Shown piece after piece: positions 11,452 through 63,886 of a stretch of 64,000 bases of DNA. The stretch is from the NCBI GenBank assembly GCA_017656235.1, contig JACDOF010000002.1, forward strand, positions 124,001 through 188,000, written 5' to 3'. A program made the position numbers and the translations under genes. Within the stretch, counting starts at the first letter, position 1. Each line of letters opens with the position of its first letter. Below the pieces are notes generated by a model. The model saw nothing but the letters and a program-made list of their open reading frames with translations, ran no database searches and was not told where the DNA came from. This DNA is from Brevibacillus sp. (GTDB lineage Bacteria; Bacillota; Bacilli; Brevibacillales; Brevibacillaceae).

Positions 11452-11812
11452 TAACAAGGTTGAGTTCTGTCCGGCGCTGTGCGGAAACGGCCGGAGAGCA
11501 AGACGTGAAAAGCGCAGAAGAGGACGAGTAGAAGGGTAGTCTGGCGCAAAGAGAGCCGTCCCACAGGCTGCAAGGACGGCCGCCATTCCCTTTGAAAATC
11601 ACCTCGGAGCTTCGCTGTTGAAACAGCCGCCCATTGGGGTGACTGGAGTAGATGGCGGCGGCTGCATCCCCGTTAACGGATGGGAGTCCGCACAGCGGAC
11701 TCACTGAGCCTGTCTGTCGCGAGACGGCGGGGAAGCCGGGTGGTACCGCAATTCGTTTGCCCTGGCAAGCATGTGCTGCGAGCATCTGCTTGCCAGGGCT
11801 TCGTTTGTTAGG
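11452..11812 (+). promoter_or_regulatory. T-box riboswitch, isoleucine-specific (AUC specifier)
   Basis: Leader RNA that senses uncharged tRNA-Ile. The stem I signature GGACGAGTAG is at 11522-11531; the apical part includes AGAGAGCC and a GCCGTCC/GGACGGC stem. The specifier loop reads GAAAATCACCTC, with ATC at 11598-11600 as the likely specifier codon. The T-box bulge sequence GCCGGGTGGTACCGCA is at 11735-11750. The terminator stem is CCCTGGCAAGCA (11760-11771) with TGCTTGCCAGGG (11787-11798), followed by a T-rich tract. Low isoleucine should favour antitermination and expression of the ACT-protein gene and ilvA. Confidence 0.93.
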
Positions 11813-51142: not shown

Positions 51143-51233
51143 GGAAGGCCGCGCATAAAATAGCCGCGGGATTGTGGGGGTTTACCCAACAGCACAAGGG
51201 AGTGTGTCAGGAAGAATCGGGGGGAGGACAAAC

Positions 51234-52412
51234 ATGAGCAGGAAGCCGCAAGTGATTGGCGTGGGAATGGTCACATTTGCCAAGCCCGGCACCCAGGAAC
51301 CCTATGAAGTGATGGCCGCGAAAGCGGTACAGGCTGCCTTGGAGGATGCCGGCCTGGATTACCGCGAGATTGAACAGGCTTTTGCCAGCTACGTGTATGG
51401 GGACAGTACCTGCGGGCAAACCGCCCTGTACCGGCTGGGCATGACCGGTATCCCGATCGTAAATGTCAACAACAACTGTTCATCCGGCTCCACCGCCTTG
51501 TACCTGGCCCGTCAGGCGGTGGAAGCTGGTGAGGCGGAGTGTGCGCTGGCATTTGGCTTTGAGGAGATGAAACCAGGCGCGGTGGGCGCTGTATGGGGAG
51601 ACCGGACCAGTCCGCTCGACCGGTTTCTGGAGCGGTTGGATCAACTGGTACCCGAGACCCGCGGAGCGCCGCCGGCGATTCGATTGTTTGGCGCCGCTGG
51701 CAGTGAATACCTTGAAAAGTACGGAGCAAGTCCCGATCTGTTTGCCAAGGTGGCGGTCAAGACGCGCCGTCATGCCGTCCACAATCCCTATGCCATTTTT
51801 CGCACGCCGCTCACGGTTGAAGAGGTGCTGCGCGCGCCGCTGATCTATCCCAACATGACCCGGTTGTGCGCCTGTCCGCCCTCTTGCGGTGCCGCAGCCG
51901 TGATCGTGGCCAGCGAGTCGTTTGCCCGCCGACGGGGCGTGACCGAGCGCGTGGAGATTGTCGCCCAGGCACTGAGGACGGATTCGGCTGCAAGCTTTGA
52001 CGATCCGATCAGCCTGGTCGGAGCGGAGATGACCCGCCGGGCTGCCGGACAGGTATACGAGGCAGCCGGTATCGGCCCGGAGGAGATGGATGTGGTGGAA
52101 CTGCATGACTGTTTTACGCCAAACGAAGTGATCACATATGAGGGATTGGGGTTGTGCGGAGAAGGGGAGGCGGAAAAGATGATTCACGACGGCGACAATA
52201 CTTATGGGGGTCGACATGTAATCAACCCCTCAGGCGGCTTGATGTCAAAAGGACATCCGCTGGGAGCGACCGGTCTGGCCCAGTGTGCGGAACTGGTTTG
52301 GCAGCTGCGCGGCCGGGCGGGAGAGCGGCAGGTGGAAGGGGCAAAGCTGGCACTGCAGCACAATCTGGGGCTTGGTGGCGCTTGTGTGGTCACGATGTAC
52401 CGCCAAGCCTGA
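51234..52412 (+). CDS. SCP-X-type thiolase
   Basis: 392 aa. The nucleophilic Cys82 lies in 'NVNNNCSSGSTALY'. 'VVELHDCFTPNE' and 'NPSGGLMSKGHPLGATGLAQC' complete the active site. The SCP-2/lipid-transfer-type thiolases often act on branched or side-chain acyl-CoAs. Typical partners with a zinc-ribbon OB domain (DUF35) are not found here. GGGGGGAGG precedes the ATG at 51234; the longer frame lacks such a site. Confidence 0.87.
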   Translation: MSRKPQVIGVGMVTFAKPGTQEPYEVMAAKAVQAALEDAGLDYREIEQAFASYVYGDSTCGQTALYRLGMTGIPIVNVNNNCSSGSTALYLARQAVEAGEAECALAFGFEEMKPGAVGAVWGDRTSPLDRFLERLDQLVPETRGAPPAIRLFGAAGSEYLEKYGASPDLFAKVAVKTRRHAVHNPYAIFRTPLTVEEVLRAPLIYPNMTRLCACPPSCGAAAVIVASESFARRRGVTERVEIVAQALRTDSAASFDDPISLVGAEMTRRAAGQVYEAAGIGPEEMDVVELHDCFTPNEVITYEGLGLCGEGEAEKMIHDGDNTYGGRHVINPSGGLMSKGHPLGATGLAQCAELVWQLRGRAGERQVEGAKLALQHNLGLGGACVVTMYRQA

Positions 52413-52508
52413 TCGGCAGGATACAGCCGCGCGTGCAAACGGCTGGGAATCCCATCAAACAGACGGACCTGCGGAGTGGCGATTCTTCACATGCGAGGGG
52501 GGGAAAGC

Positions 52509-53654
52509 ATGCCTGGCAGTTATGTTAAAGAAGAACATCAGCTTTTTCGTCGCACACTGCGTAAATTTCTGGAAAATGAAGCGGTGCCACGCTATGATCA
52601 GTGGGAACGAGAGCGGATCATCCCGCGAGATTTTTGGAGGAAAATGGGGGAACAGGGGTATCTCTGCCCCTGGGCAGATCCGCAATACGGAGGGGTTCAG
52701 GCCGATTTTGCCTACTCCGTCATCCTGCATGAAGAATTGGAGCGTGTCGGAACAAGTCTGGTGGGGATCGGGCTGCATAACGATGTTGTCGTACCTTACC
52801 TGGCTTCGTATGGCACGGAGGAACAGAAACAGCGCTGGCTGCCCGGCTGTGTCAGCGGAGAGCTGATTACGGCCATCGCGATGACGGAACCGGGGACCGG
52901 TTCTGATCTGGCCAACATCAAGGCGACAGCGATCCGTGACGGGGACGTTTATCTGCTGAACGGGGAGAAGACGTTTATTACCAACGGGATCCAGGCTGAT
53001 CTGGTTGTGGTCGCGTGCAAGACCGATCCCAAAGCGGTCCCGGCCCACAAGGGAATCAGCCTGATCGTGGTAGAACGGGACACACCAGGCTTTACCCGCG
53101 GCAGGAAGCTGGAAAAAATCGGTCTGCATGCGCAGGATACGGCAGAACTGATCTTTCAGGATGCTCAAGTTCCCGCTGCCAATCTGTTGGGAGAAGAGGG
53201 AAAAGGCTTTTATTATTTGATGGAGAAGCTGCAGCAGGAAAGATTGATGGTGGCCATCGGGGCGCAGACAGCAGCCGAAGAAATGCTGAAGATGACGATC
53301 GACTACGTGAAGACACGCAGCGCATTCGGCCAGCCGATCAGCCGTTTTCAACATACGCAGTTTGCCATTGCGGAAATGGCGACGGAGATTGAGATTGGCC
53401 GAACCTTTCTTGATCGGCTCATCGTCGAACATATGGAAGGGAAAGAGATCGTTACCCAAGTGTCCATGGCCAAATGGTGGCTGACGGAAATGGCCAAGCG
53501 CGTCGCTGCCCAGTGTTTGCAGCTGCACGGCGGATACGGGTATATGGAGGAGTATCAGATTGCCAGGAGGTACCGGGATATACCCGTATCCGCCATCTAT
53601 GCCGGTACCAACCAGATCATGAAAGCCATCATCGCCAAAAACCTGGGACTGTAA
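52509..53654 (+). CDS. Acyl-CoA dehydrogenase, LCAD/IVD type
   Basis: 381 aa flavoenzyme. 'AIAMTEPGTGSDLANIKATA' (FAD/substrate loop), 'NGEKTFITNG' and C-terminal 'QLHGGYGYMEEYQIARRYRD'. The usual MCAD base position reads Ala in 'IYAGTNQIMK', while Glu244 in 'LQQERLMVAI' fits the alternative base of long-chain and isovaleryl-CoA dehydrogenases. That points to long or branched substrates. GAGGGGGGG precedes the ATG. Third in the operon. Confidence 0.9.
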   Translation: MPGSYVKEEHQLFRRTLRKFLENEAVPRYDQWERERIIPRDFWRKMGEQGYLCPWADPQYGGVQADFAYSVILHEELERVGTSLVGIGLHNDVVVPYLASYGTEEQKQRWLPGCVSGELITAIAMTEPGTGSDLANIKATAIRDGDVYLLNGEKTFITNGIQADLVVVACKTDPKAVPAHKGISLIVVERDTPGFTRGRKLEKIGLHAQDTAELIFQDAQVPAANLLGEEGKGFYYLMEKLQQERLMVAIGAQTAAEEMLKMTIDYVKTRSAFGQPISRFQHTQFAIAEMATEIEIGRTFLDRLIVEHMEGKEIVTQVSMAKWWLTEMAKRVAAQCLQLHGGYGYMEEYQIARRYRDIPVSAIYAGTNQIMKAIIAKNLGL

Positions 53655-53681
53655 CAATGGGCAGGGAGGGGGATACAGCAG

Positions 53682-54152
53682 ATGGGGGATATTTCCCGGA
53701 AAATAGGATTTGCCTTTGCGCCTTACACGTTTGTCGTAGAGCGTGGAAAGATTCGCGAGTTCGCCCTGGCAATCGGCGACGACAATCCGATTTATCATGA
53801 TCCGGCCGCCGCTCAACGGGCCGGTTATCGCGATATCCCCGTACCGCCTACGTTTTCCACCGTGATGGATATGTGGGCGGGACCGGATTTCGAACAGCTG
53901 ACGAAGTTGTTGGAATTAAACCCCTTGCAGGTACTGCACGGCGAGCAGATGTACGAATATTCTGGTGACATCTGCGCCGGAGATGTCCTGACCGCTCATT
54001 CACGCGTGATCGCGGCGGAGACAAAAAAAGCGATGAATCTGCTGACACTGGAAACGGTATATGTGAACGGACAGGGGGAACAAGTGTTGACAGCCCAATC
54101 GGTTATCATCGAACGGCATACCCCGCCAAACGAAGCAGGAGGGAGCGTATGA
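53682..54152 (+). CDS. MaoC-like dehydratase subunit, N-terminal type (HadA-like)
   Basis: 156 aa single hot-dog domain of the MaoC_dehydrat_N class. The hydratase motif is degenerate, 'AIGDDNPIYHDPAAAQRAGY', with an extra residue before His. Such proteins form a heterodimer with a catalytic MaoC partner, here the next gene. AGGGAGGGGG lies upstream of the ATG. Confidence 0.82.
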   Translation: MGDISRKIGFAFAPYTFVVERGKIREFALAIGDDNPIYHDPAAAQRAGYRDIPVPPTFSTVMDMWAGPDFEQLTKLLELNPLQVLHGEQMYEYSGDICAGDVLTAHSRVIAAETKKAMNLLTLETVYVNGQGEQVLTAQSVIIERHTPPNEAGGSV

Positions 54153-54153
54153 G

Positions 54154-54552
54154 ATGAACCCTTTGCCTCCATTGCAAAAACAGGCCATCACCCATACCAT
54201 GCTTGTTCGTTATGCGGGCGCGTCCGGTGACTTCAATCCAATCCATACAGTCGTTCCTGCTGCCAATCAGGCAGGTTTGCGGGATGTCATCGCACATGGA
54301 ATGCTGGTGATGGGTTTTGCCGGTCAGGCTCTCGCCCGGTGGTTTCCCCGCCGTCACCTGCGCTGTTTCAAGATGCGTTTTGCACGCATGACGTATCCGG
54401 GGGAAAAGCTGACCGTAGGCGGGCAGCTCACGGAGCTGCTGGATCGAAATGGCGAAGCGCGCTGGGCAGGTGAACTGGTGGTGAAGAATGAAGCCGATGA
54501 AGTCAAAGGAATAGGGTATTTTGAAGTCCTCAAGGCAGACGATGAAGGATAA
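54154..54552 (+). CDS. MaoC-like (R)-specific enoyl-CoA hydratase subunit (HadB-like)
   Basis: 132 aa hot-dog protein with the intact hydratase-2 motif 'YAGASGDFNPIHT' (catalytic Asp and His) and 'VIAHGMLVMGFAGQAL'. It starts 1 bp after the stop of the HadA-like gene, with CAGGAGGGAG upstream. Together the two probably hydrate enoyl-CoA to (R)-3-hydroxyacyl-CoA. Confidence 0.86.
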   Translation: MNPLPPLQKQAITHTMLVRYAGASGDFNPIHTVVPAANQAGLRDVIAHGMLVMGFAGQALARWFPRRHLRCFKMRFARMTYPGEKLTVGGQLTELLDRNGEARWAGELVVKNEADEVKGIGYFEVLKADDEG

Positions 54553-54573
54553 GGACGCAGGGGAGGGTGTGAC

Positions 54574-55386
54574 GTGAGATTGTTGGAAAATCGGGTGGCG
54601 ATCATTACCGGCTCCGGCCGCGGCGTGGGGCGGGCAGCCGCTGAACTGATGGCGGAGCACGGCGCACGGGTGGTTGTGTCCGATATGGACAGGGAGCCGG
54701 CCGAACAAGCGGTCCAATCCATTCGTGACCACGGCGGGGAGGCCATCGCCGTGATCGGTGACGTGACCGATCCGCATTTCCCCAAGACGATCATTACCGA
54801 GACGATTGCCGCATATGGGCAGCTTGACATTTTGGTCAACAACGCCGGATACACCTGGGACAGCCTGATTCACAAGATGAGCGATGAACAGTTTCAAAAA
54901 ATCCTGGATATCCATTTGGTTGCCCCGTTTCGCCTGATTCGCGAAGCGGCGCCCTACCTGCGCGATGCGGGGAAAGCTGACAGTGAAGCGGGACGTATCC
55001 ATTACCGCAAGATCGTCAATGTCTCCTCGGTGGCCGGCCTGATGGGCAACGTAGGTCAGGCCAACTACGCCGCCGCCAAGGCGGGGATCATCGGGCTGAC
55101 CAAAACGGTGGCCAAAGAGTGGGCTGCTTTTCAGGTTAATTGTAATGCCGTTGCATTTGGCTTCATCGATACGCGACTGACCCAGGCCAAAGAAAAAGGA
55201 GAGACCGTTGACGGCGCAGCCATCGGCATCCCCGAAAAGGTGAGGCAGATGTTTGTCCAATCCATCCCGCAGAAACGAGCCGGGTTGGCCAGGGAAGCGG
55301 CGGAAGGCATCTTTTATCTCGCCTCTCCTCTGTCCAACTACATCAACGGCCATGTGCTGAACATCAGCGGCGGGCTGTATACCTGA
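54574..55386 (+). CDS. Short-chain dehydrogenase/reductase (3-hydroxyacyl-CoA dehydrogenase-like)
   Basis: 270 aa SDR. Cofactor loop TGSGRGVG near the N-terminus, 'NNAG', catalytic Ser in 'NVSSVAGLMG', Tyr and Lys in 'QANYAAAKAG'. Asp in 'VVVSDMDRE' suggests NAD preference. It would oxidise the 3-hydroxyacyl-CoA made by the MaoC pair and pass 3-ketoacyl-CoA to the thiolase. An extra 'DAGKADSEAGRIHYRK' stretch precedes the catalytic strand. GTG start with GGGGAGGG. Confidence 0.88.
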   Translation: MRLLENRVAIITGSGRGVGRAAAELMAEHGARVVVSDMDREPAEQAVQSIRDHGGEAIAVIGDVTDPHFPKTIITETIAAYGQLDILVNNAGYTWDSLIHKMSDEQFQKILDIHLVAPFRLIREAAPYLRDAGKADSEAGRIHYRKIVNVSSVAGLMGNVGQANYAAAKAGIIGLTKTVAKEWAAFQVNCNAVAFGFIDTRLTQAKEKGETVDGAAIGIPEKVRQMFVQSIPQKRAGLAREAAEGIFYLASPLSNYINGHVLNISGGLYT

Positions 55387-55486: not shown

Positions 55487-55514
55487 TTGATAAAAAATTA
55501 TTTTGATTTAAAAT
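55487..55514 (+). promoter_or_regulatory. Candidate promoter of the SAM-riboswitch operon
   Basis: TTGATA (55487-55492), 16-bp spacer, TAAAAT (55509-55514), in AT-rich DNA just before the aptamer. Confidence 0.55.
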
Positions 55515-55540
55515 TAAGAGGAAAGTTTGATAACGATACC

Positions 55541-55650
55541 CCTTATTACGAGAGGTGGAGGGACTGGCCCGATGAAACCCGGCAACCCTTGGAAGCGTGT
55601 CTTTCAGGAAGGTGCCAATTCCTGCAGGTGCAACCTGGCAGATAAGGGAG
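55541..55650 (+). promoter_or_regulatory. SAM-I (S-box) riboswitch aptamer
   Basis: P1 is CTTAT (55542-55546) / ATAAG (55642-55646). Conserved elements in order: GAGAGGTGGAGGGACTGGCC, the kink-turn and J-region GATGAAACCCGGCAACC, the P3 stem, AGGTGCCAATTCCTGCAGG and GGCAGATAAG. All S-box core blocks are present. High SAM should stabilise the aptamer and allow the downstream terminator to form. Confidence 0.95.
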
Positions 55651-55668
55651 AGACATTGCGGATGCGTG

Positions 55669-55700
55669 CCTCTTCCCTGTCAGCAGGGAAGAGGTTTTCT
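55669..55700 (+). terminator. Expression-platform terminator of the SAM riboswitch
   Basis: CCTCTTCCCTG (55669-55679) pairs with CAGGGAAGAGG (55684-55694), then TTTTCT. It lies 51 bp before the lipoprotein gene. Confidence 0.92.
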
Positions 55701-55750
55701 AGTATCTATACATCTACAAACAAAACTAGCCAACAAGGAGAGAGACCGAC

Positions 55751-56779
55751 GTGAAGAAAGTATTTTTGCTGCTCTGCATCTTTGCACTTGCTCTGGCCGG
55801 CTGTGCCGGCGATCAACCCGCTTCGCAGGGGAATCAGGACAATTCGCAGCAACAGGCTGAATCCAAAAAGCGAATCGCTTTGGTTCTGCCCGAGAAAATC
55901 GGGGTCAACCCGTTCTTTCAGCAGATGGACGAAGGGGTTAAAAAAGCGGCAGAAGAGTTTGGAGTGGAGAGCAAGACGATTGAATCAACCGATCCCAATG
56001 CATTTGAAGAAAACCTGCGCGTTGCTGTGGCCGAACAGTACGACCTGATCATCACCGCCACCTTCCAGGCGGAAGACGCGCTGAAAAAAGTGGCTGCGGA
56101 AAATCCCGACCGCCCATTTGCGATTATCGATACCGTCATCGATATGCCCAACGTGCGCAGTGTCGTCTTCCGCGAGCACGAAGCGGCCTACCTGCTGGGG
56201 GCGGCAGCCGGGCTGTCCACCAAGACCAATACCGTGGGAATGGTGGCGGCGATGGACATCCCGCTCTTGAAAAAGTGGACGGGCGGTTTTTCCGAAGGGC
56301 TGAAGGCGACGAATCCGGAGGCCAAGTTCCTGGTGAACTATGTCGGTAGCTTTACCGACCCGGCCAAAGCGAAAGAACTGGCCCTCCTGCAGCACTCGCA
56401 GGGCGCCGATTTCATCGCGGGTGCCTCCGCTGTAGGTGACCTGGGCGTGTTTGAGGCGGCCAAGGAGAAAGGGTTTTACACCGCCGGTCAGGATGTGGAC
56501 CGTACGGAAGTGGACCCGGAACACGTCGTGCTGTCCCAGCTGAAGGGAACCGATGTGGCCGCCTACGAGACCGTGAAAGATTTCGTCAACGGCTCGTTCC
56601 AGTTCGGGTCGATTGACTACGGTCTGAAGGAAAACGGCGTAGGTCTGACTTTTGTCACTCACGAGAGCAAGTCTCCACTCCATCCGTTTATCGGGGAAGA
56701 AACGATTGCCAAGCTGAAAGAGATCAAGGACGAGATCGTCTCCGGCAAGCGCGAAGTGCCCAATCCGCTTACGAACTAG
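55751..56779 (+). CDS. BMP-family (nucleoside-type) ABC substrate-binding lipoprotein
   Basis: 342 aa. Perfect lipobox LAGC with Cys18. 'FFQQMDEGVKKAAEEFGVESKTIE', 'YDLIITATFQAEDALKKVA', 'EHEAAYLLGAAAGLSTKTNTVGMVA' and 'FTAGQDVDRTEVDPEHVVLSQLK' (as YTAGQDVD...) are typical of PnrA/BmpA/NupN-like binding proteins, which bind purine or pyrimidine nucleosides. GTG start with AAGGAGAG at 9 nt. It is under SAM riboswitch control, which is not the usual regulation for nucleoside uptake. Confidence 0.9.
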   Translation: MKKVFLLLCIFALALAGCAGDQPASQGNQDNSQQQAESKKRIALVLPEKIGVNPFFQQMDEGVKKAAEEFGVESKTIESTDPNAFEENLRVAVAEQYDLIITATFQAEDALKKVAAENPDRPFAIIDTVIDMPNVRSVVFREHEAAYLLGAAAGLSTKTNTVGMVAAMDIPLLKKWTGGFSEGLKATNPEAKFLVNYVGSFTDPAKAKELALLQHSQGADFIAGASAVGDLGVFEAAKEKGFYTAGQDVDRTEVDPEHVVLSQLKGTDVAAYETVKDFVNGSFQFGSIDYGLKENGVGLTFVTHESKSPLHPFIGEETIAKLKEIKDEIVSGKREVPNPLTN

Positions 56780-56786
56780 TCTGGGT

Positions 56787-56820
56787 AAACCGGCTACATG
56801 CGTAGTCGGTTTCCTCTTTT
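56787..56820 (+). terminator. Intercistronic hairpin after the binding-protein gene
   Basis: AAACCGGCTAC (56787-56797) pairs with GTAGTCGGTTT (56802-56812), one G-U pair, then CCTCTTTTCTC. Probably a leaky terminator or mRNA-stabilising hairpin that keeps the binding protein in excess over the ATPase and permeases. Confidence 0.65.
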
Positions 56821-56841
56821 CTCGATGAAAGGGTGAAAAGT

Positions 56842-58350
56842 GTGACGGTTTTACTGGAGATGGAAGGAATCACCAAGTTATACGGAACCTTTGCCGCCAA
56901 CCGGCAGGTCAGCTTTACGCTCCATCGGGGTGAAATCCACGCCATCGTCGGGGAGAACGGAGCCGGAAAAACGACGCTGATGCGCATCCTGTACGGGATG
57001 GAGCAGCCTACCTCCGGCACGATCCGCATCAACGGCGAAGTGAAACAGTTTGCCGATCCGGCGGATGCAATCAAGAGCGGAATCGGCATGGTCCACCAGC
57101 ACTTTATGCTGTTTCCGTCGTTTACGGTGGCGGAAAACATCGTGATCAGCCGGGAACCGACGAGAGGGGTCTGGTTTGACCGGGACGAGGCGGCCGCCCG
57201 GGTACGGGAACTGTCGGAGCGGTATCGGATGGCCGTCGACCCGTACAAGAAGATCTGGGAATGCTCGCTTGGCATGCAGCAGCGGGTGGAGATCCTCAAA
57301 GTACTGTATCACGGGGCCGATATTATCATTCTCGACGAGCCGACGGCAGTGCTGACTCCGCTCGAGGTAAAAGAACTGCTGGAGACCCTGAAAAACCTGG
57401 CTGCACAAGGAAAAAGCGTGATCCTGATCACGCACAAACTGCACGAAGTGATGGAAGTGGCTGATCGGATCACGGTACTTAGGAGCGGACAGGTGACAGG
57501 TACCTTGCGGGCAAAAGAAACGAATGTGGAAGAGTTGTCCCGGCTGATGGTGGGGCGCGAGATTGCCGAGATGCAGCGCCGCGAACAAAAGCAGGGTGAC
57601 GTGGTATTGGCCGTCGATGATCTGTTTATCCGCGGGGACGGGGGGAAGCCGCTGCTCGATGGCATCAGCTTCCGCGTCCATGCCGGAGAGATCGTCGGCA
57701 TTGCCGGGGTGTCAGGCAACGGCCAATCGGAGCTGATTCAGGCCATTACCGGGCTTCGTCCGGTGGACGGGGGAAGCGTTCGTCTGCTTGACCATCCTGT
57801 CACCAATGCACCGGTGCGCACGATACGCCGTCTGGGACTTGCCCACATCCCGGAGGATCGCTACCTGTGGGGAGCGGCCAAGGATGGCAGCATTGTGGAG
57901 AACGCCATCCTGCACCAATACGGGGAGCGATCGTACAGCAGGTTTGGCTTCCTCCTGCAGCGGCGGCTGCGCGAACTGACCGAAAACTGGGTGAAACAGT
58001 TTGCCGTGAAGACCAACTCACTGTTTGAAAAGGCCCAGCACCTGTCTGGCGGCAACCTGCAGAAGCTGATCGTCGCGCGGGAGATCGGGCAAAACACGCC
58101 ATTTTTGCTGGCGGCCGAACCGACCCGCGGGGTGGACATCGGAGCGATGGAGTTTATCCATGCCCAGCTGCTGAAAAAGCGGGAGCGCGGAGACGCGATC
58201 CTGCTTGTCTCGTCGGAACTGTCGGAGGTGATGACGCTCTCCGACCGCATCCTGGTGATGTACGAAGGGAAAATCGTCGGAGAAGTGGACGGGCGGGAAG
58301 CTACGGAAGAAGCGATCAGCCTGTTGATGGCGGGAGGAGGAGCGCGATGA
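56842..58350 (+). CDS. Nucleoside-type ABC importer ATP-binding protein (two ABC domains)
   Basis: 502 aa with two fused nucleotide-binding domains, as in NupO/RbsA-like ATPases. First domain: Walker A GENGAGKT, 'LGMQQRVEILKVLYHGADIIILDEPTAVL'. Second: degenerate Walker A-like 'GVSGNGQSEL', signature 'LSGGNLQKLIVAREI', 'LLAAEPTRGVDIGA'. The GTG at 56842 is chosen because AAAGGG lies 8 nt upstream. It overlaps permease 1 by 4 bp. Confidence 0.9.
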   Translation: MTVLLEMEGITKLYGTFAANRQVSFTLHRGEIHAIVGENGAGKTTLMRILYGMEQPTSGTIRINGEVKQFADPADAIKSGIGMVHQHFMLFPSFTVAENIVISREPTRGVWFDRDEAAARVRELSERYRMAVDPYKKIWECSLGMQQRVEILKVLYHGADIIILDEPTAVLTPLEVKELLETLKNLAAQGKSVILITHKLHEVMEVADRITVLRSGQVTGTLRAKETNVEELSRLMVGREIAEMQRREQKQGDVVLAVDDLFIRGDGGKPLLDGISFRVHAGEIVGIAGVSGNGQSELIQAITGLRPVDGGSVRLLDHPVTNAPVRTIRRLGLAHIPEDRYLWGAAKDGSIVENAILHQYGERSYSRFGFLLQRRLRELTENWVKQFAVKTNSLFEKAQHLSGGNLQKLIVAREIGQNTPFLLAAEPTRGVDIGAMEFIHAQLLKKRERGDAILLVSSELSEVMTLSDRILVMYEGKIVGEVDGREATEEAISLLMAGGGAR

Positions 58351-59411
58351 ACAACAGGGAATGGGCGACGAGTCTGCTCCATCCGCTGGTTGCCGTATTG
58401 GTCGGCCTGCTGGCGGGAGCGTTTGCCATCTGGGTGGTAGGCGCGTCGGTCATCGAGACGTATGCGGAGATGTGGAAAGGAGCGTTCGGCAGCTTTTATT
58501 TTGCGACCAACACATTGACCAGGGCGACCCCGATCATGCTCGCCGGTTTGGGTGTGGCGCTTGCTTTTCGGGCCGGTTTTTTCAATCTGGGCGCGGAAGG
58601 ACAGATGGTATTGGGGGCCGTGGCGGCAGCGCTGACCGCACTCTACCTGCCGGGGCCGGGCTGGCTGAAGCTGGCTGCCGCGCTGTTTGCCGGTTTTCTC
58701 GTGGGCGGACTTTGGTCCGCGGTGGCCGGGTGGTTAGACGCCGCCTTCAAGCTGAATCTGCTCATCACGACACTGCTGATGAACTACATTGCCATTCTGT
58801 TTGCGGGTTACCTGGTGACGGAGCCGTTCAAGGACACCACCGGTTCGGCGGCGATTGCCCAAACCCCCATGATTGACCGGGCGGCTTGGCTGCCCAAGCT
58901 GTTCTCCGGGATGAGTCTGCATGCCGGATTTCTGATTGCGGCGGTGGCCGCATTGCTCTTGTACATCATCATCCGTCACAGTGCTTTTGGGTACGAGGTC
59001 AGGATGTTTGGCTATAATCCTTCCTTTGCCGCATACGGCGGGATCGTAAGGACGCGGGTGATGCTGATCAGCATGCTGGCCAGCGGAGGCCTCGCCGGGC
59101 TGGCCGGCACAGTGGAAGTGCTCGGGATGCAGTATCGCTACATCGACGGTGCGCTGACCGTGCCGGGGTACGCCTGGACCGGCTTGATGGCTTGCCTCCT
59201 GGCCAATTCCCATCCCCTTGGCACGGCGTTGGCCAGCCTCTTGCTGGCTGCCCTGCAAACCGGGGCGATGGGCGTGGAGCGGAATACGGAAGTGCCGCTG
59301 GAGATTGCCAGCGTCATACAGGCCGTGCTGATTTTGTTCGTGTCGGCCAAGTTCAGCTATTCGTTCTGGAAACGGAGAAAAGCGAGGGAATCACATGGAA
59401 CAACTGTTTGA
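58347..59411 (+). CDS. Nucleoside-type ABC importer permease 1 (NupP-like)
   Basis: 354 aa with about nine membrane helices of the BPD_transp_2 family. 'ATPIMLAGLGVALAFRAGFFNLGAEGQMVLGAVAAAL' is the hallmark stretch; 'LITTLLMNYIAILFAGYLV' and 'SHPLGTALASLLLAALQTGA' follow. The ATGA overlap with the ATPase and a 17-bp overlap with permease 2 show tight coupling. Confidence 0.9.
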   Translation: MNNREWATSLLHPLVAVLVGLLAGAFAIWVVGASVIETYAEMWKGAFGSFYFATNTLTRATPIMLAGLGVALAFRAGFFNLGAEGQMVLGAVAAALTALYLPGPGWLKLAAALFAGFLVGGLWSAVAGWLDAAFKLNLLITTLLMNYIAILFAGYLVTEPFKDTTGSAAIAQTPMIDRAAWLPKLFSGMSLHAGFLIAAVAALLLYIIIRHSAFGYEVRMFGYNPSFAAYGGIVRTRVMLISMLASGGLAGLAGTVEVLGMQYRYIDGALTVPGYAWTGLMACLLANSHPLGTALASLLLAALQTGAMGVERNTEVPLEIASVIQAVLILFVSAKFSYSFWKRRKARESHGTTV

Positions 59412-60318
59412 CATCTCCTTGTTGAACTCGACGGTCCGAATGGTAACGCCGATTCTCCTCGCCGCCCTTGGCGGCGCGCTCTGCGCCAGAGTGGGCTTGT
59501 TTAACGTGGGGTTGGAAGGGTTGGTGCTGATCGGCGCGTTCGCCGCCATCGTGGGCAATCACTTTACGGGCAGTCTGCTGCTGGCGATCCTGTTGGCAGT
59601 GCTGTGTGTCGTGCTTTTTTCCCTGTTGTTCGCCTACATGGCGATCAACCTGAAGGCCAACGAGATCGTGGTGGGGATCGCCCTTAACTTTCTGGCCGTC
59701 GGCCTGACCACGTTTGCGCTGCGCACGATCTTTGAGGTAAAGGGGGCTTTTTACGACAAAAACATGGACGGGCTGCCCTCCCTTACACTGCCCCTGATCG
59801 ACCAGATACCGGTTGTAGGCCCCATTGTCTCCGGCCACTCGCCGCTCGTCTACTTCACGTTTTTGCTGGTCGTGCTGATGCACATCTACTTGTTCAAGAC
59901 CGTTTCCGGTTTTCGGCTGCTGGCGACGGGCGAAAATCCGATTGCCGCTCAAAGCATGGGGGTAAAAGTGCGTCGTGTGCAGTACCTCGCCGTCGTGCTG
60001 TGCGGTGTCTTTTGCGGATTGGCCGGAGCGCAGCTTTCGCTGGGACAAGTGACCATGTTTGCGGAGGGCATGACCGCCGGGCGGGGCTTCATTGCTTTGG
60101 TGGCGATGATGCTCGGCCAGTCCAATCCGTCAGGGGTGATGGCAGCCAGCCTCTTGTTCGGATTCATGGACGCACTCAGCATTCGCCTGCAGGGGTTCTC
60201 CATACCGACCCACTTTACGCTGATGCTGCCGTATGTGATGACCATTGTGGCGATGTTTTTGTTCCGCGACAAAAGCTACCTGCAGCTGGCCCAGAGGGGC
60301 GGCGGAAGCGACCGATAG
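59395..60318 (+). CDS. Nucleoside-type ABC importer permease 2 (NupQ-like)
   Basis: 307 aa, about eight to ten membrane helices. 'TPILLAALGGALCARVGLFNVGLEGLVLIGAFAAIVG' parallels permease 1; 'INLKANEIVVGIALNFLAVGLTTFALR' and 'GRGFIALVAMMLGQSNPSGVMAASLLFGFMDALSIRLQG' are family-typical. GAGGG precedes the ATG inside the end of permease 1. It completes the importer. Confidence 0.9.
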   Translation: MEQLFDISLLNSTVRMVTPILLAALGGALCARVGLFNVGLEGLVLIGAFAAIVGNHFTGSLLLAILLAVLCVVLFSLLFAYMAINLKANEIVVGIALNFLAVGLTTFALRTIFEVKGAFYDKNMDGLPSLTLPLIDQIPVVGPIVSGHSPLVYFTFLLVVLMHIYLFKTVSGFRLLATGENPIAAQSMGVKVRRVQYLAVVLCGVFCGLAGAQLSLGQVTMFAEGMTAGRGFIALVAMMLGQSNPSGVMAASLLFGFMDALSIRLQGFSIPTHFTLMLPYVMTIVAMFLFRDKSYLQLAQRGGGSDR

Positions 60319-60375
60319 TCTTGTCAAAACGAAAAAGGTTGGAAGAATGTTCATCCTGATAGGAGGCGGTGACAG

Positions 60376-61038
60376 TTGAACAAGGCGGAGCGAATCAAAC
60401 GGATGAAAGTCCCCGCTGTTGATCCGGCACTTGCCCACCGGCTGCCGCCCGGACAAGTGCTGACCGAGCGCTTTCCCATCCTGCACGAAGGCGAGGAGCC
60501 GGTATATGACCTGAACACCTGGACCCTGCGTGTGTTTGGCGAAGTGGAAGAAGAGAAAATCTTCACCTATGACCAGATCATGGCCCTGCCGCAGACAAAA
60601 ATGGTGTGTGACATTCACTGTGTCACGCGCTGGTCCAAATTTGACACGGAATGGGAGGGCGTCCGCTTTGCGGACCTGCTGCATACACTCAAGGTGAAGC
60701 CGACGGCCCGATACGTGATGATTTACGGCGATTACGACTACGAAGCCAATCTGCCGCTTGCCGACCTCATGCGGGACGATGTGATGCTGGCCCATGCGTA
60801 CGCAGGCAAGCCGCTGACGGAAAAGCACGGTTGGCCGCTGCGGCTGATTGTTCCGCACCGCTATTTCTGGAAGAGTGTCAAATGGGTCCGGGGGATTCAG
60901 TTTATGACGGAAGACCGTCCAGGTTTTTGGGAACGAAACGGGTTTCACAACGAAGCCGACCCGTTCCTGGAGCAGCGATTCTCCGGAGAGGAACTGCCGA
61001 TTCCGGAAGACGAATGGATGAAAAAGGAGTTTGATTGA
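60376..61038 (+). CDS. Molybdopterin-dependent oxidoreductase, sulfite-oxidase-like (YuiH type)
   Basis: 220 aa containing just the Moco domain (Oxidored_molyb). The molybdenum-ligating Cys82 is in 'VCDIHCVTRWS'; other pterin-contact stretches are 'EWEGVRFADLL', 'LAHAYAGKPLTEKHGWPLRLIVP' and 'YFWKSVKWVRGIQF'. No Tat signal and no haem domain, so it is probably cytoplasmic. The TTG start has AGGAGG at 8 nt. It lies between the importer and the phosphorylase and overlaps neither. Substrate unknown. Confidence 0.87.
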   Translation: MNKAERIKRMKVPAVDPALAHRLPPGQVLTERFPILHEGEEPVYDLNTWTLRVFGEVEEEKIFTYDQIMALPQTKMVCDIHCVTRWSKFDTEWEGVRFADLLHTLKVKPTARYVMIYGDYDYEANLPLADLMRDDVMLAHAYAGKPLTEKHGWPLRLIVPHRYFWKSVKWVRGIQFMTEDRPGFWERNGFHNEADPFLEQRFSGEELPIPEDEWMKKEFD

Positions 61039-61039
61039 G

Positions 61040-61762
61040 ATGACATTGCCTATTTTGCGCGTTGATCCGGAGCAAATCCCGGCCCAGGCGATCGTATGCG
61101 GGGACCCGCAGCGGGCGGCGGTGATCGCCGGCTATCTTGATGACAGTCGGGAGCTGGCCTTCAGCCGGGAGTACCGCACCTTTACCGGTACCTATCAGGG
61201 GGTGCCGCTGGCGGTCGTCAGCCACGGGGTCGGATCGCCGGGCGCTGCTGTCTGTTTTGAAGAACTGATCCGTGCCGGCGTCACCACTCTGATCCGCGTG
61301 GGTACCGCTGGTTCCCTGATCAGCGACCTGCCGCCGGGGAGCCTTGCCATCAGTACAGCGGCTGTGCGCGAAGAAGGGCTGACCCGCCAGTACGTACCGC
61401 ACGGCTTTCCCGCAGTGGCAGACAGTACAGTGGTAGAAGCGCTGTACAATAGCGCACGGGAGCAGGAAGGGATCGTCAAGAAAGGCATCACGCTGACCCT
61501 GGACGCCTTTTTCCGCGGCGTCGTCGAACTGCCCCACAAAACCTACCAGCGGGCGGGCGTGATCGCGGTGGAGATGGAGACGGCGGCCCTGTTTGTGATT
61601 GCCTCGCTGCGAGGAGTCCGCGCCGGTTCCATTCTGGCGATTGACGGTTATGCGGACGTCGATCTGGCGCAGGAGTACAACCCGCATACCGATGAAGTGG
61701 CCAAGGCGGTGGAGCGGGAGATACGGATTGCGCTGGAAGCGATGCGCAAGCTGGCGGAATAA
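61040..61762 (+). CDS. Nucleoside phosphorylase (PNP/UDP family, uridine-phosphorylase-like)
   Basis: 240 aa. Phosphate site 'VCGDPQRAAVIAG', 'VSHGVGSPGAAVCFEELI', 'TLIRVGTAGSL' and the ribose-contact 'AVEMETAALFVIASL' identify the PNP_UDP_1 trimer/hexamer group (Udp, DeoD, MtnP-distant). The ATG at 61040 has AAAAGGAG at 10 nt, inside the Moco gene's end. As the last gene of a SAM-riboswitch operon with a nucleoside importer, its substrate may be a SAM-derived nucleoside such as methylthioadenosine or 5'-deoxyadenosine; that is inference. Confidence 0.87.
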   Translation: MTLPILRVDPEQIPAQAIVCGDPQRAAVIAGYLDDSRELAFSREYRTFTGTYQGVPLAVVSHGVGSPGAAVCFEELIRAGVTTLIRVGTAGSLISDLPPGSLAISTAAVREEGLTRQYVPHGFPAVADSTVVEALYNSAREQEGIVKKGITLTLDAFFRGVVELPHKTYQRAGVIAVEMETAALFVIASLRGVRAGSILAIDGYADVDLAQEYNPHTDEVAKAVEREIRIALEAMRKLAE

Positions 61763-63012: not shown

Positions 63013-63053
63013 CCTCCGGGGCAGGCGCAGCACGTGCTCCCCGGAGGTTTTTT
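63013..63053. terminator. Terminator between convergent genes
   Basis: CCTCCGGGG (63013-63021) pairs with CCCCGGAGG (63039-63047), then TTTTTT. It serves the lipoprotein gene on the plus strand. Confidence 0.9.
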
Positions 63054-63886
63054 CAGTTCCCGAACGGGTACCAAAAACTTGTAAAAACGTTCAGCTTCAG
63101 CCAGATGGAGAGGGCGAGCAAGGCCAGGCTGGCGGCAAACGTGACGTAATCCACCTTCCCAAACGAAGTGGCATTGTACCAGGTCCGGCTGCGTCGGTTG
63201 CCGAAACCGCGCAGCTCCATTGCGTTGGAGACCGTCTCGACGCGATCAAGACTGGAGACAAACAGCGGCATCAACAGGGCGACCCAGGCCTTCAAGCGCT
63301 TGCCGATGCTCCCGCTCCCCTTTTCCAGCGAAACGCCTCGCACCTGTTGGGCATGCGCAATCTGCATGAATTCCCGCTGTACGTTGGGCAAGTAGCGCAG
63401 CGCGATGTTGAGGGAGTAGGCGATCTTGTAAGGAATGCCGATGCGGTGCAGGCTGCTGGCCAGACGGCTGGGATGAGTCGTCAGGATAAACAGCACCGCC
63501 ATCGGGAAGATGGCCAGGTACTTGACGATCAGCATCACACTGTAAAAGACGGTCTCCTTGGTGATGGTCAACCCGGCCACGGTGAGCAGCGGATGCTGGA
63601 CCGAGACGTATTTGCCGGCATACGATGGCGTCAGGATGTTGGTCAGCAAGGCGGTCAGCGTGACGAAGGCGATCATCATCAGGATCATGCGCCGAATGCG
63701 GGAAAAAGAGATGTGCGACAGCGGAATCAGGGCGAACCCCGCTGTAAGAAAGACCAGCAGGATCCGGATGTCATAAAACAAAAAGATCGAGCCGGTCCAA
63801 CAGGCCAACAGCGCCAGCTTGGTTCGCCCGTCCATGCGGTGCAAAAACGAGCGGCCGGGAATGTATTGAAAGTTAAGGGACTGCAT
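63053..63886 (-). CDS. ecfT: Energy-coupling factor transporter transmembrane subunit T
   Basis: 277 aa. About five or six membrane helices and the two conserved coupling-helix motifs with Ala-Arg-Gly-type cores: 'AHAQQVRGVSLEKG' and 'SNAMELRGFGNRRSRTWY'. EcfT joins the ATPase pair EcfA1/A2 to vitamin- or metal-binding S components. The ATG follows AGGTGAAGGTGG and overlaps the end of the upstream ATPase gene by 14 bp, as in the usual ecfA1-ecfA2-ecfT order. Confidence 0.92.
   Translation of the reverse strand: MQSLNFQYIPGRSFLHRMDGRTKLALLACWTGSIFLFYDIRILLVFLTAGFALIPLSHISFSRIRRMILMMIAFVTLTALLTNILTPSYAGKYVSVQHPLLTVAGLTITKETVFYSVMLIVKYLAIFPMAVLFILTTHPSRLASSLHRIGIPYKIAYSLNIALRYLPNVQREFMQIAHAQQVRGVSLEKGSGSIGKRLKAWVALLMPLFVSSLDRVETVSNAMELRGFGNRRSRTWYNATSFGKVDYVTFAASLALLALSIWLKLNVFTSFWYPFGN

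Follow-up and report, generated by a model that had tools for sequence, protein, structure and literature searches.

A SAM-I riboswitch operon of Brevibacillus as a candidate system for methylthioadenosine import and salvage

Results and discussion

The window, a 64,000-nt stretch of a contig from a soil bacterium (Brevibacillus sp.), contains a six-gene operon behind a SAM-I (S-box) riboswitch that encodes a BMP-type nucleoside importer, a single-domain molybdopterin (Moco) oxidoreductase and a nucleoside phosphorylase. We consider it likely that this operon serves the salvage of methylthioadenosine (MTA), a waste product of SAM, which would be imported and cleaved so that the cell regains the sulfur as well as the purine. 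The riboswitch and terminator, the gene set and its conservation, the PurR-box sites and the mtnA linkage are read directly from sequence. A purine nucleoside with methionine-derived sulfur, with MTA as the first candidate and 5'-deoxyadenosine as the second, is favored because three independent lines point to it: leaders combining an S-box with PurR sites, the linkage of phosphorylase orthologues to mtnA, and the replacement of the histidine expected at the nucleoside 5'-OH. The same lines support the core of an earlier sequence-only reading, which had proposed import and phosphorolysis of a SAM-derived nucleoside. The operon is thereby a concrete and widely conserved candidate MTA importer in Brevibacillus and Paenibacillus; no dedicated methylthioadenosine importer was found described in the open-licence literature, and one may have been described elsewhere.

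Operon structure and riboswitch leader

The features of the operon, all on the plus strand, are:

55487..55514, +, sigma-A-like promoter TTGATA-16-TAAAAT (consensus scan, 10/12 matches)
55540..55648, +, SAM-I (S-box) aptamer (Rfam RF00162, 88.3 bits, E 1.2e-19)
55668..55698, +, intrinsic riboswitch terminator (fold and scan)
55751..56779, +, BMP/PnrA-type substrate-binding lipoprotein, GTG start (PF02608, 1.7e-57)
56787..56812, +, hairpin with T-rich tail between the BMP and ATPase genes, a possible partial attenuator (scan, in which such hits do not exceed the number expected by chance)
56833..58350, +, ABC ATPase with two nucleotide-binding domains (PF00005, two stretches)
58347..59411, +, ABC permease 1 (PF02653, BPD_transp_2)
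59395..60318, +, ABC permease 2 (PF02653, BPD_transp_2)
60376..61038, +, single-domain molybdopterin oxidoreductase, probably cytosolic (PF00174, Oxidored_molyb)
61040..61762, +, nucleoside phosphorylase, proposed to act on MTA or 5'-deoxynucleosides (PF01048, PNP_UDP_1)

The six genes are mostly joined by overlaps or short gaps, and the Pfam matches bear out the families that the sequence-only reading had assigned to them (BMP protein, ATPase, two permeases, Moco enzyme and PNP/UDP-family phosphorylase). Its gene coordinates also stand, with one correction: ATG 61040 is a more probable start of the phosphorylase than TTG 61031, the orthologues beginning near the former. Its description of the aptamer and terminator as complete is confirmed as well: positions 1-108 of the 108 in the RF00162 model are matched, with a score well above the gathering score of 44.4, and the terminator is a 12-pair hairpin (55668-55695) followed by T's (-24.0 kcal/mol for the folded stretch 55649-55702). 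Reading the sequence, the 5' arm of the terminator is able to pair alternatively with the end of aptamer helix P1; the complementary segments GAGGAAGAG/CUCUUCCUC were read from relatives, and the window copy carries a one-base bulge. In these respects the window leader behaves as expected of a SAM-I riboswitch, and a terminator also lies ~40 nt 3' of the aptamer in all 16 related S-box loci. The operon would thus be transcribed when SAM is low, through S-box read-through. This leader resembles known SAM-I riboswitches in its complete aptamer and terminator and in switching a transport and salvage operon, but differs in its targets, namely a BMP nucleoside importer, a Moco enzyme and a phosphorylase. 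We found no description of an S-box ahead of this gene combination in the open-licence literature; an earlier description elsewhere is possible.

By score, the S-box of the operon ranks third among the 11 in the genome. The others precede metH, a homocysteine synthase gene, a cystathionine gamma-synthase-type gene, metX, an ECF transporter cassette, mtnK, mtnW, an aminotransferase gene and metK, so that the pathway from MTA to methionine shares a regulon with the BMP operon. The genome also encodes an MTA/SAH nucleosidase (MtnN), futalosine hydrolase and two phosphorylases that are PunA-like by sequence; the existing MtnN and MtnK count against the MTA salvage reading.

Conservation and changes of control

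A search with the BMP protein, restricted to one genome per species, returned 80 related loci, 74 of which have the six genes in identical order. The Moco gene is missing from five (L040, L054, L057, L069 and L078) and the phosphorylase from one (L096). With a covariance model derived from all 11 S-boxes in the window genome, we located an S-box directly upstream of the BMP gene in 16 loci; by label these are 14 Brevibacillus, an Anoxybacillus sediminis and a Bacillus. Given this recurrence, neither the gene order nor the S-box at its head is due to chance. The same model found no S-box ahead of BMP in any of the 61 Paenibacillus operons, which counts against MTA salvage and indicates a switch of control between Paenibacillus and Brevibacillus with the gene set retained. 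The earlier reading had named homologous operons without the riboswitch as evidence that would refute it; this is the situation in Paenibacillus but not in Brevibacillus. Rfam searches detected no known riboswitch in the non-S-box relatives L019, L026, L061, L034, L040, L054 and L057. In many Paenibacillus loci (within L034-L098) the BMP gene is preceded at ~60-100 nt by a promoter region of strong conservation (TTGACAAGGATCGACAGTATCCGCTAGGAT and variants), with neither S-box nor PurBox; control of this promoter by CymR was considered and set aside.

In a sample of 20 loci from whole genomes of the window's family, which overlaps the 80-locus set, the S-box is present in 16 loci, or 16 of the 17 that are usable. 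Those lacking it are a complete operon (L162), a phosphorylase standing alone (L165), a locus whose contig begins 175 nt before BMP (L169) and a distant paralogue (L178). One genome, G014 (L173), carries a natural deletion in which the S-box and terminator run straight into the phosphorylase, the importer and Moco gene being gone, and this direct joining counts in favor of MTA salvage; what appear to be the last codons of the Moco gene remain just before the phosphorylase start.

Many Brevibacillus leaders contain, 3' of the S-box terminator and ahead of the first gene, an inverted pair of PurR boxes followed by a second promoter-like sequence (TTGAAA-17-TACATT in several). With a lax pattern the pair is found in 19 of 81 leaders, compared with 2% of shuffled leaders, and in 10 of the 16 S-box loci; under a strict pattern, 16 of the 80 loci have it no more than 350 nt ahead of BMP, and it occurs nowhere else in the 1.64 Mb of those loci. 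Some loci (L054, L057, L061 and L069) have the PurBox pair only and no S-box. The PurR of B. subtilis recognizes 14-bp PurBoxes with 16-17 bp between them (PMC8789054), and the spacing in the relatives agrees with this geometry. In three genomes searched, the same pattern occurs upstream of purEK, folD, purA or purE, the downstream proteins having been identified by reading. The window leader lacks the pair, and by this feature the window operon does not belong to the PurR regulon; the window genome yielded one match to the pattern. Where an S-box and a PurBox with second promoter share a leader, the operon could be activated by a shortage of SAM or, separately, of purine. Such dual control would be expected if the imported compound gives both methionine sulfur and purine, a description that fits MTA.

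Linkage of the phosphorylase to mtnA

We searched the phylum Bacillota for distant orthologues, with the phosphorylase orthologue of genome G196 as query, and examined 11 of the matches that fall outside the window's class; their identity is 44-49%. Nine have mtnA, which encodes methylthioribose-1-phosphate isomerase, as a same-strand neighbor separated by 33-1158 nt. Of the remaining two, one stands at the head of a BMP-ABC operon, an arrangement seen in L215, where a methionine gamma-lyase-like gene follows. The twelfth orthologue, that of G196, lies in a cluster of phosphorylase, GntR-type regulator, mtnA (465 bits to TIGR00512), NupC nucleoside transporter and class II aldolase, directly downstream of carboxynorspermidine synthase and decarboxylase genes (L189:1961-5232, -). 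Importer genes recur in L209 (mtnA, dehydrogenase, phosphorylase, BMP, ATPase, two permeases), where the phosphorylase again heads the BMP-ABC genes, and in L212, whose ATPase and permease genes are found a few kb 5' of the phosphorylase. The L210 cluster holds mtnA, an aldolase, a deaminase of the MTA/SAH-deaminase group and a methionine gamma-lyase-like gene. The linkage is a property of the distant orthologues, the window genome itself having none, and the distant mtnA-linked clusters contain no S-boxes.

The substrate of MtnA, methylthioribose-1-phosphate, is the expected product of MTA phosphorolysis. The linkage therefore favors two members of the sequence-only reading's list of candidates, MTA and 5'-deoxyadenosine, and disfavors a third, S-adenosylhomocysteine (SAH), which we reject as main substrate as its cleavage would yield nothing for MtnA. 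The DHAP shunt has a known variant in which a phosphorylase does the work of both nucleosidase and kinase (PMC10986504). The proposed system is similar to bacterial methionine salvage and the DHAP shunt (MtnN/MtnK or MtnP, then MtnA) in that methylthioribose-1-phosphate would feed MtnA and the orthologues cluster with mtnA and aldolases; it differs in having its own ABC importer and a phosphorylase like Plasmodium PNP and uridine phosphorylase instead of the trimeric PunA/MTAP type.

Active site of the phosphorylase

An AlphaFold2 model of the phosphorylase (mean pLDDT 91.7) is closest to Plasmodium falciparum PNP (PfPNP; about 38% identity), followed by Thermus PNP and uridine phosphorylases. 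The nearest PDB sequences and structures are hexameric-type PNPs and uridine phosphorylases, which places the enzyme apart from the trimeric MTA phosphorylases of the MtnP/PunA type. In related phosphorylases a histidine (PfPNP His7, E. coli PNP His4) contacts the nucleoside 5'-OH, and PfPNP accepts 5'-methylthioinosine. Unlike PfPNP, its top structural match, the window enzyme has Ile at this position, as do the Paenibacillus enzymes; many Brevibacillus have Asn, and most mtnA-linked orthologues have Ile or Leu. Two observations count against MTA here: Asn could still bond the 5'-OH, and one mtnA-linked orthologue (L219) keeps the histidine. The histidine is also retained in four distant paralogues; a paralogue of 37% identity with this residue adjoins an ECF transporter cassette (L178:5068-8925, -). 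The Asp of the AIDG motif is conserved and aligns with PfPNP Asp206, which contacts the purine. Alignment to the S. pyogenes uridine phosphorylase leaves a gap at the insert bearing the uracil-binding Gln and Arg, and we reject a uridine phosphorylase identity on this basis. The best NCBIfam name for the protein is nonetheless uridine phosphorylase, below the cut-off, and this too counts against MTA salvage. MTA salvage would give a candidate role to a subfamily annotated at best as uridine phosphorylase.

Binding protein and molybdoenzyme

The binding protein belongs to the BMP/PnrA family by domain (PF02608, 195.2 bits; cut-off 24.1). We compared its residues with the BmpA binding site (PMC13325309) in an 81-sequence alignment of the operon family. 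The stacking Phe27/Phe176 and the ribose-binding Asp98/Asp225/Lys242 of BmpA correspond to F55, F201, D127, D248 and K265, of which F55, F201, D248 and K265 are invariant or nearly so. It thus shares the fold family, the stacking Phe pair and the ribose-binding Asp/Asp/Lys with the PnrA/BmpD nucleoside importers of Treponema, Borrelia and Streptococcus, but differs on the base side, where BmpA Asp19, Asp24 and Asn28 are replaced across the operon family by P47, V52 (Leu in six) and F56. As base-side residues vary within the BMP family too, the changed loop points to another ligand and not to another family, in keeping with a nucleoside-like compound that the protein recognizes in its own way. 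The distant mtnA-linked BMP proteins (33-40% identity) keep the ordinary loop, which counts against MTA salvage and leads us to think that the importer was probably recruited more than once.

The Moco protein comprises PF00174 only (220 residues, no dimerisation domain, no evident signal peptide), and missing the C-terminal dimerisation domain it is rejected as a classical sulfite oxidase. Its molybdenum-ligand Cys, in the motif HCVTRWS, is invariant and aligned with that of MsrP (YedY). MsrP is the closest NCBIfam family by score, at 72.1 bits far short of the cut-off of 207, and a fold search with the protein's model (pLDDT 78) matched SoxC, MsrP and sulfite oxidases about equally. The gene is retained in 75 of the 80 Brevibacillus and Paenibacillus operons and absent from the distant clusters outside the window's class; in one Paenibacillus whose operon lacks it, the gene stands by itself at another site. 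The handling of an oxidised sulfur group, suggested by the sequence-only reading, is neither favored nor disfavored by these results. Reduction of an oxidised sulfur in the substrate is a possible role for the enzyme, and the operon offers a function test for this orphan branch of cytosolic sulfite-oxidase-like molybdoenzymes.

Proposed pathway and alternatives

From sequence comparison we infer what is transported and in which direction, the reaction that follows and the mode of control. At low SAM, transcription would pass the terminator of the S-box leader and the operon would be made. The BMP lipoprotein would capture a 5'-modified purine nucleoside, most likely methylthioadenosine and possibly 5'-deoxyadenosine, for import by the ABC transporter. 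With phosphate, the phosphorylase would convert MTA to adenine, destined for purine salvage, and methylthioribose-1-phosphate, destined for MtnA and the remaining steps of methionine salvage, a pathway also S-box-controlled in this genome; the nucleosidase and ATP-consuming kinase would be bypassed. In many Brevibacillus the second promoter with its PurR operator, between riboswitch and genes, should allow low purine to switch the operon on as well. If true, the riboswitch and PurR leader would be a clean natural case in which shortage of either half of a salvaged molecule switches on one operon.

That the main substrate is 5'-deoxyadenosine, or 5'-deoxynucleosides generally, processed by a route like the DHAP shunt, seems to us unlikely: clusters of mtnA with class II aldolase fit that shunt (PMC10986504) and MtnA can be promiscuous (PMC6302742), but the S-box control and methionine gamma-lyase neighbors point to a sulfur compound, as does the sulfur-recovering mtnW pathway within the S-box regulon of the window genome. 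Still less probable is an ordinary purine or uridine nucleoside importer and phosphorylase to which the S-box is a local add-on. Common nucleosides are the usual BMP ligands (PMC13325309), PurR operators fit purine salvage and Paenibacillus lacks the S-box; yet this leaves the phosphorylase-mtnA linkage, the conservation of the S-box across Brevibacillus, the lost 5'-OH histidine and the changed base-side loop to be accounted for, in a genome that already has two PunA-like PNPs and with an enzyme missing the uridine phosphorylase Gln/Arg insert.

An extension of MTA salvage, and not its opposite, holds that the substrate is at least partly MTA sulfoxide, which the Moco enzyme would reduce to MTA before phosphorolysis. 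Retention of the Moco gene in 75/80 operons and its absence from distant clusters outside the class argue for this, as does the sulfoxide reductase MsrP being the closest named family by score; the shortfall of that score (72 vs 207), a fold search that does not separate SoxC, MsrP and sulfite oxidase, the five operons without the gene and the species in which it stands alone elsewhere argue against it, and we regard the extension as doubtful. Comparably speculative is the fullest form of MTA salvage, combining a high-affinity ABC importer devoted to MTA, an MTA phosphorylase of a new, Plasmodium-PNP-like class, a two-input OR gate in Brevibacillus (SAM riboswitch or PurR) and prior reduction of oxidised MTA by a cytosolic Moco enzyme.

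Neighboring genes in the window

Upstream of the operon, genes for a thiolase-like protein, an acyl-CoA dehydrogenase, two HadA/HadB-like dehydratases and a FabG-like reductase stand in a row (51174-55386, +) and are probably a separate acyl-CoA cluster. A T-box leader at 11506-11767 (+) scores 94.3 bits, barely over its gathering score. Downstream, 63053-63886 (-) encodes the CbiQ-type T component of a second S-box-controlled transporter, which continues in L014:4874-7431 (-) and is of the ECF type (likely S component, fused double ATPase and CbiQ). The ECF operon converges on the BMP operon, so that two S-box transport operons lie tail to tail.
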